Source: Anaerolineae bacterium
GTDB taxonomy: Bacteria > Chloroflexota > Anaerolineae > Aggregatilineales > Phototrophicaceae
Length of the DNA stretch: 32,103 nt
Direction: 5' to 3'
NCBI GenBank assembly: GCA_019912985.1
Contig: JAIOHN010000244.1
Span: forward strand, 1-32,103
The position numbers were made by a program, and so were the translations under genes. Below are positions 14,297 through 18,560 of this stretch, piece by piece (position 1 is the stretch's first letter; each line of letters opens with the position of its first letter). The notes beneath the pieces are model-generated. The model made no database searches. It was given only the letters and a program-made list of their open reading frames with translations, and had not been told where the DNA came from.

Positions 14297-15673
14297 TCAT
14301 TTTAGAATGTAGTATGTACCCTTTTTTGAGCCGACCTTGAGCAGAATACCCTGCTCGACCATATCCACCAGGTCGAGACGCAGCGTTTCCGCTGAGACAC
14401 CCTGGCACAAGCTGCGATACTCGCGATTGGTGATCGAGCCGCTCTCACGAATATACTGCAAGGCGCGTGCCTGGCGGTGATTGGTATTTCGTGACCAGGC
14501 GGGTGCGCTTGGTTTCTCGCGGGCATTGTACAGTGTGACCGCGAAGCTGTAAGGCCGCGCATCGAACATGGGTGGCTTGTGTCCAGCCTGTTGCATGACT
14601 TCCATCATGCGGTCGATACCTAACCCCAGTTCTTCGATGTAACCCCACTGGAAGAGGCCATTCACAATGCGCGGATTGCGGCTGAAGTGCTCGTCAACGA
14701 TATTCTCCACCGTGATGAAACCCGGCAGCCCACCCGGTGAGATGACTTCCAGCCGGTCGGAGTACATGCGAATTTCAATCCGGCGGCCTTTCAACCGGTA
14801 ATCCCGATGGCAGACGGCGTTTACGATCGCCTCACGCACAGCAAACTGCGGGTACTCGTAGGTTTCTTCCCGCTCCAGGCCTTTTACCACCGCGCTCACA
14901 GCCATCTCACTCCAGATGAGATTCCATGAGGCTTCAATCACTTTGGAAAGCGGCCCGGTGATTTCCTCGCGGCGGGAATATCCGGCCAGGCCGTTCTCAC
15001 CACGCGGGGTCTTGCCTACAAATTTCGCAAACACCACACTGCACTGCGGCAGCCAGTGCTGCGGATACTCGCTGAACAGCAGCAGCCCCATTACTGTGGG
15101 TTTGCCATCGGCATTCACCGCGCCAACTTCCAGCAACAGGTCGTCAATTTTGCCATTGTAAGGGCGTTTCGTTCGCTCAGCACGCTTCGCCAGATATTCA
15201 TCCAGCATCTTGCGGCTGAAATCATTCTTGGATGCGCCCGGCACCACCTCGGATTCGAAGTCGCCGGTACTTTTGGCGCTTACCAGCTTGAGGATTTCCT
15301 GGCCGCCCAACGGTCGATTTTTCGCGCCACTGCGGATCAACACGCGTCCATCAGTTAAGGCATGCAGCTCAATACTGCGCGGCACCCGCAGCGAATAGAC
15401 TGAGGAGCCATCCTCGTCAATCTCCACCTGCTCCCAGCTCCCCAACACAACCGGCGGGTTGCAGCTGGCATCAGCATCATTCAAGGCCTTTTCAAACTTC
15501 TCGGTCTCGATTTTGCTGGTAGGTTTTCCCTCTTCATCCAGCCCGACGATCAACGTGCCGCCTTCCGTGTTGGCAAAAGCCACCATCGTTTCCGACATCA
15601 AACGAGGATCCGCTTTTTCCAAAAAGGCCACTCTGGGACCTGGACCAGATTTTATAAGTTCTGTGTTCGACAT
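14297..15673 (-). CDS. AlbA_2/Schlafen-type predicted transcriptional regulator, 458 aa
   Basis: The N-terminal AlbA_2 (Schlafen-like) domain shows ETMVAFANTEGGTLIVGLDE, the usual hallmark. The middle holds a HATPase_c_4-like domain with REAIVNAVCHRDYRLKGRRI, followed by VISPGGLPGFITVENI and NPRIVNGLFQWGYIEELGLG. The last 70 residues look like a winged helix (ITNREYRSLCQGVSAETLRLDL). Proteins with this layout are usually called ATP-dependent DNA helicase RecG-related or putative regulators; helicase motifs are absent here, so a DNA-binding regulator is the better reading. A 16-base perfect palindrome lies 28 bases upstream of its ATG and could be its own operator. It is followed by the membrane kinase gene. 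Confidence 0.85.
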   Translation of the reverse strand: MSNTELIKSGPGPRVAFLEKADPRLMSETMVAFANTEGGTLIVGLDEEGKPTSKIETEKFEKALNDADASCNPPVVLGSWEQVEIDEDGSSVYSLRVPRSIELHALTDGRVLIRSGAKNRPLGGQEILKLVSAKSTGDFESEVVPGASKNDFSRKMLDEYLAKRAERTKRPYNGKIDDLLLEVGAVNADGKPTVMGLLLFSEYPQHWLPQCSVVFAKFVGKTPRGENGLAGYSRREEITGPLSKVIEASWNLIWSEMAVSAVVKGLEREETYEYPQFAVREAIVNAVCHRDYRLKGRRIEIRMYSDRLEVISPGGLPGFITVENIVDEHFSRNPRIVNGLFQWGYIEELGLGIDRMMEVMQQAGHKPPMFDARPYSFAVTLYNAREKPSAPAWSRNTNHRQARALQYIRESGSITNREYRSLCQGVSAETLRLDLVDMVEQGILLKVGSKKGTYYILK

Positions 15674-15792: not shown

Positions 15793-15821
15793 TTGATCTT
15801 CCTAATTATCCTGATTATACT
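15793..15821 (+). promoter_or_regulatory. Promoter of the radical SAM operon, probably leaderless
   Basis: TTGATC (15793-15798), a 17-base spacer and TATACT (15816-15821). The predicted transcription start falls at about 15828, the first base of the radical SAM ATG. There is no Shine-Dalgarno sequence before that ATG. Confidence 0.5.
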
Positions 15822-15827
15822 GGTAAT

Positions 15828-16880
15828 ATGGGTGCCAGACATTTGTTAAATCTGGCAGGCAACCGCCTGCAAACGCTGCCGCTGGTCGTCCTCTATCTGA
15901 CCGACGGCTGTAACAGCCGCTGTATAACCTGTGACATCTGGCGCAATCCCCGACGCAATATGTCGCTGTCCCTTGTTGAAGAGATTACCAACACGTTCGC
16001 CGACTTAGAGGTGCGTTGGGTGTTGCTCAGTGGTGGCGAAGCCATGCAGCATCCCGACTGGCCGCTGATTGCGCAGCGCTGCCGGCAGGCCGGGGCGCAT
16101 GTTATGCTGCTCACCAATGGGCTGCTGCTGCGCCGACAGGCTGACGCCGTGCTTGAAAATGTCGATGAGGTCATCGTCAGCCTGGATGCAGGCACGCCAG
16201 CGACATATGAAGCTATTCGCGGCGTGGATGCGTTTGACCTGGTGCTTGAGGGCATCCGTGCCGTCCATGCTGGCGGGCTGCCTGTGACCACGCGCACCAC
16301 GGTACAGCGAGCTAACTATCGCGAAATTCCACAAATTATTGAGATCGCCAGCCAGGCCGGTGCCGATCACATCAGTTTTCTCACCGTGGATGTCAGCAGT
16401 CTTGAAGCCTTTGGCCCACGTTTCACAGCCGACCCGTCGCTAATGATTATGCCACAACCCAACACGAACGATCCATCGACCAGCGCCCTCGATGCCAGCG
16501 ATATTGAGCAGTTAGCGCACATTCTCGATGAAGTGGAGCAGCGCTTTGCGGATTTTTTTGCCAGTGGCCGCATTGCAGAATCCCCTGCCAAGCTGCGCCG
16601 GATGCTCGGTTATTTTCGCGCCCTGCTTGGAGAAGGCGATTTTTCGCCGCCACGCTGCAATGCGCCTCACTTTAGCACTGTGATCGAAGTGGATGGTACG
16701 CTGCGCCCCTGCTATTTTCTACCTGCCTATGGCAAAATAGAGGGTGCTCCGCTGCCTGCCGTACTCAATGGAGATATCGCACAGACTCTGCGCCAGGCCT
16801 ATCGCAGCGGCCAGCGACCAGAATGCGCTCGCTGTGTGTGTCCGCTTTACAAAGGCCCGCGCACCTTACTGCGCATGTAA
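15828..16880 (+). CDS. Radical SAM protein with SPASM/twitch-like C-terminus, 350 aa
   Basis: The 4Fe-4S cluster motif CX3CX2C is C28, C32 and C35 in TDGCNSRCITCDIW. WVLLSGGEAMQHPDW is the GGE motif that contacts SAM. A second cysteine set, C277, C295, C333, C336 and C338, at the C-terminus (RPCYFLPAYG and ECARCVCPLYKG) fits a twitch or SPASM auxiliary cluster, so the enzyme probably modifies a peptide, lipid or carbohydrate. No precursor peptide is evident. A -35/-10 pair places the transcription start on the ATG itself. Its stop abuts the ATG of the next gene (16881), and a SAM methyltransferase closes the operon. The substrate is unknown. Confidence 0.88.
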   Translation: MGARHLLNLAGNRLQTLPLVVLYLTDGCNSRCITCDIWRNPRRNMSLSLVEEITNTFADLEVRWVLLSGGEAMQHPDWPLIAQRCRQAGAHVMLLTNGLLLRRQADAVLENVDEVIVSLDAGTPATYEAIRGVDAFDLVLEGIRAVHAGGLPVTTRTTVQRANYREIPQIIEIASQAGADHISFLTVDVSSLEAFGPRFTADPSLMIMPQPNTNDPSTSALDASDIEQLAHILDEVEQRFADFFASGRIAESPAKLRRMLGYFRALLGEGDFSPPRCNAPHFSTVIEVDGTLRPCYFLPAYGKIEGAPLPAVLNGDIAQTLRQAYRSGQRPECARCVCPLYKGPRTLLRM

Positions 16881-17405
16881 ATGATGTATATTCTAATTCC
16901 GTCTTTGATTTGTCTCATTTTTTTAATCCGCACCGTCTTGATTATGGCGGGGATGCTGAAAGGCCCCGTGCTGCAAACATTTGAAAAATACGGGGATACA
17001 GAAAATATTTACCATCCTCTGCCCTCACTGCTCTTCTGGAGCGGGATTATGATCGTGTTCATCAGCCCGATTATCGCTGAGGCGCTGGTCACCAGCACCA
17101 CCAATATTGCCATGCCGGGTTTTATGATGATCCTCGCTGCCTATCTGGTGGTCACCAATCCGCAATACGTGCGAGAGCATCCTAATATCTTCTTTATTTA
17201 CCCGCGCTGGTATCATGAACTGCGCGCCCGCACCTCACGCTATGAGCGGCGGCGTATCGCCTATAAGTGGCTATGGCTCCCGCCCCGTTTGCGTTTGATC
17301 TACAGTAGTAGTGATCGTGCCTTCAGCCAATGGGCTGACCTGATCATTATGACGACCACGGATATTGACGAAACACCGACTGACCGTATTGTCTCGGATT
17401 ATTAA
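16881..17405 (+). CDS. Unrecognised membrane protein with basic tail, 174 aa
   Basis: I do not recognise the family. Three hydrophobic segments are visible at about residues 1-24, 48-70 and 75-95. They are followed by a strongly basic, aromatic cytoplasmic tail (YPRWYHELRARTSRYERRR, then WLWLPPRLRLIYSSSDRAFS). The ATG directly follows the radical SAM stop with no gap, so translation is very likely coupled; a second ATG three bases on is equally possible. It probably works at the membrane with the radical SAM enzyme and the methyltransferase, but this is inferred from gene order only. Confidence 0.75.
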   Translation: MMYILIPSLICLIFLIRTVLIMAGMLKGPVLQTFEKYGDTENIYHPLPSLLFWSGIMIVFISPIIAEALVTSTTNIAMPGFMMILAAYLVVTNPQYVREHPNIFFIYPRWYHELRARTSRYERRRIAYKWLWLPPRLRLIYSSSDRAFSQWADLIIMTTTDIDETPTDRIVSDY

Positions 17406-17456
17406 CGCAACGACGATGCCATCCACAGCGTATAGGGTAGCAAAGGAGAAATAACC

Positions 17457-17660
17457 ATGTCGATTGTCTTGCTACCTTTCCGTATCGTATGGGGTTTGTT
17501 GGCCTTAATCCTCAACATCGGTGGGCGGCTGCTGGCGATTATCCTGGGCCTGGTGCTGTTGTTGATTGGCGCACTGCTCACGCTGACCGGTGTGGGGGCG
17601 CTGTTCGGCGTTCCCATGTTGATACTGGGTTTTGCACTCATCTTACGAGGCTTGTTCTAA
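17457..17660 (+). CDS. Small hydrophobic membrane protein, 67 aa
   Basis: Almost wholly hydrophobic, with two predicted helices (about 6-40 and 45-64) joined by a Gly-containing turn, and Arg residues near both ends. A very good ribosome site (AAAGGAG, eight bases before ATG) supports real translation. It sits 51 bases after the 174-residue membrane protein and ten bases before the methyltransferase start. No conserved motif is recognisable. I considered a peptide substrate of the radical SAM enzyme, but it has no leader/core layout and no Cys, so a membrane subunit is more likely. Confidence 0.7.
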   Translation: MSIVLLPFRIVWGLLALILNIGGRLLAIILGLVLLLIGALLTLTGVGALFGVPMLILGFALILRGLF

Positions 17661-17670
17661 GGATAATCAC

Positions 17671-18333
17671 GTGCTCGATCGTATTCGCCATCTATTACCC
17701 ACTATCTCGCTGAAAACACTCACCAGCATCGAAGCCTACGACCAATGGGCGACAACGTACCCACCACGTGCGCACAATGTATTGATGTCATTAGAAGAAG
17801 ATGCCATGCTGCGCCTCATGCCAACACTGGCAAACCAGCGTGTGCTCGATCTGGCCTGTGGCAGCGGGCGCTATGGGCGACTGGCACTGGAACAGGGTGC
17901 AAAAAGCGTCACCGGCCTGGATAACAGCCCTGCCATGCTCCAGGCCAACCAGCATGGACAGCGCGTGCTTGCCACCGTCGGAGCACTGCCCCTGCCACAG
18001 AACTGCATGGATATTATCCTGTGTGGGTTGGCGCTTGGCCATCTTCCCTCGCTGCTGCAACCGCTGGCGGAAATTGGCCGTGTGCTCAAAAGTGGTGGGA
18101 TCGCCCTTATCAGCGATTTCCACCCGTTCGTGTTTTTTAACGGCGGGCAGCGCACCTTTACCGGGCGTGATGGTCGAGTATATGCGGTCGAGCATTATCC
18201 GCATCTCTACGCGGATTATCACAATGCAGCGATGGCCGCAAATCTGTTGATCGAAGGGGTGCTAGAGCCAGTGCTGGATAACGGCAGCGGGGAAATCCCT
18301 ATTATTCTGGCGCTGCGGCTGCGAAAACTCTAA
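17671..18333 (+). CDS. Class I SAM-dependent methyltransferase, 220 aa
   Basis: Rossmann-fold methyltransferase of the UbiE/Methyltransf_11 type. Motif I is RVLDLACGSGRYGRLALEQG, motif II is VTGLDNSPAMLQAN, and GLALGHLPSLLQPLAEIGRV matches the post-motif region. An upstream in-frame ATG at 17632 would overlap the previous gene. The GTG at 17671 has TAAGGA seven bases before it and is preferred. It is the last gene of the radical SAM operon. Methyl acceptor unknown; small molecules or lipids are usual for this branch. Its 3' end overlaps the convergent small membrane gene by four bases. Confidence 0.85.
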   Translation: MLDRIRHLLPTISLKTLTSIEAYDQWATTYPPRAHNVLMSLEEDAMLRLMPTLANQRVLDLACGSGRYGRLALEQGAKSVTGLDNSPAMLQANQHGQRVLATVGALPLPQNCMDIILCGLALGHLPSLLQPLAEIGRVLKSGGIALISDFHPFVFFNGGQRTFTGRDGRVYAVEHYPHLYADYHNAAMAANLLIEGVLEPVLDNGSGEIPIILALRLRKL

Positions 18334-18560
18334 TGAGGCCGGTTGTGCGTGATGAGAAAATAAATGCCCAGAAGCGCAGTAATGATGGCTGGCGGCACAC
18401 AGAAGGAAACCAGCAACCGCGCAAGTTGATCAATGCCGGTGTTGCCCAGCACAATCCACAACACGATAAATAAAATAATCCCACCAACCGCCATAGCGGC
18501 GGCAATGATCGTGGCGCGTGAGATGGTTTTACGGTTGAAGGGATTTGGTGTCTCGCTCAT
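18330..18560 (-). CDS. Small two-helix membrane protein, 76 aa
   Basis: Unrecognised family. A polar N-terminus (MSETPNPFNRKTISRA) is followed by two hydrophobic helices, about residues 17-40 and 48-70, ending in a short polar tail. The stop overlaps that of the methyltransferase gene by four bases in a convergent arrangement. It may follow the 117-residue membrane gene on the same strand (gap about 50 bases). Composition and the helix pattern favour a real protein; function unknown. Confidence 0.6.
   Translation of the reverse strand: MSETPNPFNRKTISRATIIAAAMAVGGIILFIVLWIVLGNTGIDQLARLLVSFCVPPAIITALLGIYFLITHNRPH

Follow-up and report, generated by a model that had tools for sequence, protein, structure and literature searches.

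The window, that is, the whole stretch of 32,103 nucleotides analysed here, comes from a 7.28-Mb metagenome genome whose named relatives are Anaerolineae. Four open reading frames follow one another on its plus strand, separated by gaps of 0, 51, and 10 bases, as an earlier first-pass annotation had described. These encode a radical SAM enzyme of 350 amino acids (rSAM, or F0; 15828–16880), a 174-aa three-helix membrane protein (M174; 16881–17405), a 67-aa hydrophobic protein (M67; 17457–17660), and a class I SAM methyltransferase (MT, or F1; 17671–18333). The MT begins with GTG at 17671, the start that agrees with the homologues; an alternative TTG is found at 17632. To the left, the minus strand carries a SLFN_AlbA_2/HATPase_c_4 protein (AlbA; 14297–15673), which marks the left edge of the syntenic block. 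AlbA is found at this locus, divergent from the rSAM, in most members of the family (f1), with identities mostly of 75–86%, which is unusually high. To the right, the gene for a conserved 76-aa membrane protein (p76; 18330–18560, minus strand) converges on the MT gene, overlaps its stop codon, and forms the right edge of the unit. It is conserved in more than 20 loci; in one genome (G037), where rSAM and MT are 200 kb apart, it goes with the MT, and it also remains where the rSAM and MT have been lost. A search of the locus against Rfam gave no match.

A promoter-like site is present on the plus strand at 15793–15821. Its −10 element, TATACT, stops 6 bases short of the ATG of the rSAM. Of 40 homologous loci, 20 have a matching box in this position, compared with 1.8% at ATGs in general. 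The arrangement suggests that the rSAM start of the unit is leaderless and opens a transcript of its own. That roughly half of the rSAM loci have a TATACT-like −10 so close to the start codon also suggests that leaderless transcription is common in the family.

The first-pass annotation rightly recognised both enzymes. The rSAM matches Radical_SAM (PF04055) with an E-value of 1.3e-20 and 74.6 bits, against a gathering score of 29.5, which places it in the superfamily, and it lies above the cutoff for SPASM (PF13186; 27.4 versus 21.5 bits), although its homologue in genome G301 falls below the latter. The CX3CX2C cysteines, C28, C32, and C35, are invariant (56 of 56 homologues), and so are the five C-terminal cysteines to which the annotation had drawn attention: C277, C295, C333, C336, and C338, arranged as CX12GX4C...CX2CXC. 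A canonical SPASM domain has seven cysteines, CX9-15GX4C...CX2CX5CX3C...C. With only five C-terminal cysteines the rSAM does not fit this seven-cysteine motif, and its C-terminus is, as judged from sequence, a truncated, twitch-like SPASM. The AF2 model has a pLDDT of 85.7. Orthologues at 56–73% identity occur in 40 other genomes of family f1; therefore, the rSAM is more than a chance reading frame. None of the curated NCBIfam families was above its cutoff for this protein. It was rejected both as an equivalog of BlsE (TIGR04466; 55.5 bits, cutoff 400) and as an HpnH adenosyl-hopene transferase (TIGR03470; 46.9 bits, cutoff 225).

Two observations on the rSAM loci of relatives may be added. 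Immediately upstream of the rSAM, L043, L044, and L102 (near L047) carry a gene for a phosphoribosyltransferase (PF00156). In addition, a contig titled "Bacteroidetes bacterium" (L033, JAPUDW010000040.1) carries an rSAM 65% identical to that of the window in a locus syntenic to the Anaerolineae family, and is probably mislabelled or misbinned.

The MT matches Methyltransf_11 with an E-value of 5e-17. Assignments to BioC, UbiE-MenG, and DVU_1556 were rejected, the scores of 47, 46, and 64.6 bits being set against cutoffs of 185, 158, and 155, respectively.

For the two proteins encoded between the enzymes, no family scored above cutoff. The model of the 174-aa protein has three long helices, at residues 2–23, 46–69, and 73–92, in agreement with the first-pass annotation; what had been called a basic tail, however, is a conserved four-helix domain in which P108, W110, T118, E122, R124, W130, L131, F148, and W151 are invariant. 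The protein and its homologues combine three TM helices with a helical domain bearing RTxRxERRRIAYxWLxLP...D..F..W.D. A sequence profile of the protein gave no match in PDB or Pfam, and a fold search against PDB gave a best E-value of about 2, again no match. With its homologues, M174 makes up an apparently undescribed family.

Do the four genes belong together? On the earlier reading the four make up one operon, with the membrane proteins as partners of the enzymes and a membrane-bound lipid or peptide as the substrate that these modify. The tight spacing favours this reading, and the 174-aa gene does adjoin the rSAM in 36 of 41 rSAM-positive genomes, so that the expected co-occurrence of membrane gene and rSAM in relatives is in part borne out. 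The converse does not hold. The 174-aa gene is present in 80 of the 98 genomes of the family, and 41 of the 98 have it without rSAM, MT, or two further genes described below (F20 and F12a). Among those 41, wherever the locus was read, the gene's position is mostly unchanged, with AlbA on one side and, on the other, p76, GlnRS, or the gene that follows these. The presence of the 174-aa gene shows no correlation with that of the rSAM (p 0.07), and on a 37-row tree of the neighbouring AlbA protein, which yields six independent contrasts, none or one of the six is concordant. Close relatives illustrate the point: of two genus-mates, G039 has rSAM-M174-M67-MT and G038 has M174-M67 only, and of two close sisters, G023 has rSAM-M174-MT and G026 has M174 only. 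The opposite case is seen in L032, L064, and L046, in which the MT follows the rSAM directly with no 174-aa gene between them. As for the 67-aa gene, it was seen at three rSAM loci only (the window, L054, and L062), and it persists in L119 after loss of both enzymes. A synteny unit of rSAM, M174, and MT was accordingly rejected on the strength of the 41 enzyme-less genomes, and we regard the four-gene operon with membrane partners as very improbable. The 174-aa and 67-aa proteins are long-standing neighbours at the locus and stand apart from the pathway to which we assign the enzymes. The membrane-bound substrate had been deduced from genes that are independent of the enzymes, and this part of the earlier reading falls as well. 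Tight operon spacing alone can thus mislead: here the membrane genes are bystanders, and one has to look to other contigs for the true partners.

The two enzymes themselves are a different matter. In the 98 genomes of family f1 the rSAM is found in 41 and the MT in 43; both are present in 40, the rSAM alone in 1, the MT alone in 3, and neither in 54 (Fisher 1e-22, a value which, as throughout, is uncorrected for the relatedness of the genomes, many of them fragmented MAGs). Several of the discordant cases sit at contig ends. In five genomes (G031, G032, G033, G037, and G052) the MT and rSAM are unlinked, on another contig or 200 kb apart, yet both are kept. On the AlbA tree the rSAM changes seven times, and the MT changes in the same direction in five or six of the six contrasts (median p 0.03, which with six contrasts is at the edge of significance). 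Because the two genes are present or absent jointly, even where they are unlinked, a functional link between rSAM and MT, kept or lost together, is supported.

The wider company of the enzymes becomes visible outside the family. Distant rSAM homologues, with 35–46% identity, lie within larger clusters, both in further Chloroflexota and on a contig from Bacteroidia (L048). In two genomes from another family of the same class as the window, G424 (L103) and G301 (L104), the cluster is colinear and reads F17-F0-F12a-F12b-F13-F12c-F1-F20-Wzx flippase; in G301 its eight genes occupy 8873–17873 of L104. F12a, F12b, and F12c are three B12-binding rSAMs, F13 is a second class I methyltransferase, F20 is an amidohydrolase, and F17 is a nucleotidyltransferase-like protein, the last so called from an hG[GS]...DxD-like motif in its sequence and not from a family match. 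F1 of these clusters has full-length homology to the window's MT, at 41–47%, and other MTs match it only partly. Most of the eight-gene set is also found together in L111 and in the Bacteroidia contig. In the class sample, outside family f1, F12a is present in 15 of 17 rSAM-positive genomes and in 49 of 351 others (p 9e-11). Among curated families, the pathway proteins passed cutoffs at the superfamily level only (Radical_SAM, SPASM, B12-binding, Amidohydro_1, and Methyltransf models), and a literature search on the gene cluster found no paper describing it.

Within family f1 the same genes occupy no fewer than four separate loci: rSAM with MT; F20 with F12a, often with F12b, F13, and a flippase; F12c alone; and F17 alone. 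The second of these, locus B, has F20 beside F12a, followed in many genomes by F12b-F13-Wzx-PMT-GT4. In L043, L044, and L047 an F13-type MT, not F1, stands directly after the rSAM, and this is an independent link of the rSAM locus with locus B. In family-wide profiles of the 98 genomes, which covered rSAM, MT, M174, F20, and F12a, the amidohydrolase F20 was found in 41; F20 and the rSAM occur together in 37, the rSAM without F20 in 4, F20 without the rSAM in 4, and neither in 53 (Fisher 6e-18). F12a was found in 47, and the corresponding counts with the rSAM are 35, 6, 12, and 45 (Fisher 2e-10). F12c and F17, each at its own locus, were looked for in 18 chosen genomes: all 11 pair-positive genomes have them, and none of the 7 pair-negative ones does. 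A reading of the F12c and F17 loci in the family, made to look for additional members of the pathway, showed no shared neighbours of a pathway-like kind. Besides the rSAM and MT, the window's own genome yielded only F20 (on contig C725), F12a, F17, and F12c, the last as a fragment at a contig end. Neither F12b nor F13 nor the flippase was seen there, and the picture is incomplete because the contigs are short (C725, 6.6 kb; C427, 6.4 kb; C872, 11.9 kb). There are exceptions to the pattern: G007, G008, G044, and G057 have rSAM and MT without F20, and several pair-less genomes have F12a (G019–G022, G053, G040, and G041). Some of these, not all, are fragmented MAGs. The five pathway genes profiled in all or part of the family largely share one presence/absence pattern, and the same phyletic pattern was found in independent lineages for MT, F20, and F12a in the 98 genomes and for F12c and F17 in the 18 chosen.

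Could such a pattern arise among genes that are merely correlated, through lifestyle or a large surface-glycan repertoire, and lost jointly by genome reduction? Phylogeny is a confounder here, as a single genus (g22), with genomes of 3–5 Mb, accounts for 33 of the 54 genomes that have neither enzyme. The concordance nevertheless holds both at 5 Mb or more and below, and three large genomes (G038, G058, and G059; 5.6–6.8 Mb) are without all of the tested pathway genes. Moreover, in another family these genes form one colinear cluster, and most of them stand together in the Bacteroidia contig. We consider mere correlation rather unlikely.

Taken together, it is likely that the rSAM and MT both act in a single conserved biosynthetic pathway, which comprises about eight genes, scattered in family f1, and from which the membrane proteins are independent. 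The pathway is apparently undescribed. Its rSAM would generate a 5′-deoxyadenosyl radical at the C28/C32/C35 cluster, the five C-terminal cysteines may hold an auxiliary Fe-S cluster, and a small substrate would be oxidised or rearranged. The MT would methylate an intermediate of the same route, and the B12-dependent rSAMs could add C-methyl groups or rearrange carbon. The product, most probably a modified sugar or glycolipid unit, would be made in the cytoplasm, flipped to the outside, and attached there to a surface glycan.

What is made is a matter of inference, and a modified, exported sugar or glycolipid is our best guess, favoured because the rSAM matches BlsE and because of the neighbours. 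The pathway genes usually lie near a Wzx-type flippase and glycosyltransferases, and the neighbours that recur are glycosyltransferases, O-antigen-ligase-like proteins (called from sequence), and flippases. These same neighbours weigh against the main rival to a sugar or glycan, namely that the same pathway leads to a membrane lipid of a hopanoid-, quinone-, or tetraether-like kind. For a lipid it can be said that F12a and F12b score best against BchE, HpnJ, and a "lipid biosynthesis" model (TIGR04072), though far below cutoffs, and that the MT is weakly BioC/UbiE-like; in the loci read, however, no lipid or acyl genes were noticed alongside. A lipid product is therefore unlikely in our judgement, if less so than the remaining candidate, a two-enzyme RiPP system whose precursor would be the 67-aa protein or another small ORF. 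A SPASM-type rSAM with a small ORF nearby is what such a system would present, and Foldseek also matches SkfB and SuiB. Yet the rSAM gave no match to the PqqD/RRE domain that is usual in RiPP maturation systems, and the 67-aa gene, as described above, was seen at only three rSAM loci and outlasts the enzymes. No conserved precursor was noticed in the loci read, and we hold the RiPP reading to be very improbable.

It is tempting to go further than the sugar or glycolipid product itself and to propose, tentatively, a new pathway with four rSAMs (one SPASM-type and three B12-dependent) in Chloroflexota and at least one Bacteroidia contig, which would make a new, multiply modified surface glycan or glycolipid unit and whose genes have been dispersed to at least four loci in one Anaerolineae family, where they are gained or lost largely as a unit. 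As a whole this proposal is quite possible, though short of probable. An enzyme set that combines three B12-rSAMs with a SPASM rSAM, in Chloroflexota that have been little studied and are for the most part uncultured, would probably yield an unusual molecule. An odd four-gene operon has in this way become a testable hypothesis with eight named genes, for which the close sister genomes G039/G038 and G023/G026 provide natural keepers and losers, and for which the G301 and G424 clusters are ready-made for expression.

How do these enzymes compare with known systems? In domain make-up F12a and F12b are like the B12-binding rSAMs of hopanoid/ladderane/BchE type, HpnJ (TIGR03471), TIGR04072, and BchE (TIGR02026), which are their best-scoring models; F12a nevertheless falls short of the cutoffs for HpnJ (138.8 bits versus 577.6) and TIGR04072 (128.6 versus 360), and no hopanoid or ladderane genes were noticed beside F12a or F12b. 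For F0 of G301, the SynChlorMet proteins ScmE and ScmF (TIGR04250/04251) are among the best curated models, at about 65–67 bits against a cutoff of 400. The best PDB match of the window's rSAM is BlsE (7vob), by sequence (8e-19) and by fold (E-value 3e-14, TM 0.64/0.68). BlsE is the cytosylglucuronate decarboxylase of blasticidin S, which decarboxylates a sugar nucleoside (PMC3715490). The two proteins are of similar size and share the radical SAM fold, but their identity is 22%, BlsE has GGEP where the rSAM has GGEA, and no blasticidin-like gene context was seen; the similarity reflects mostly the common radical SAM fold. With the SPASM/twitch enzymes PqqE, SuiB, SkfB, and anSME, the rSAM has in common the fold and the CX12GX4C first half of SPASM, and it differs from the seven cysteines of canonical SPASM in having five C-terminal ones, which end in CX2CXC.
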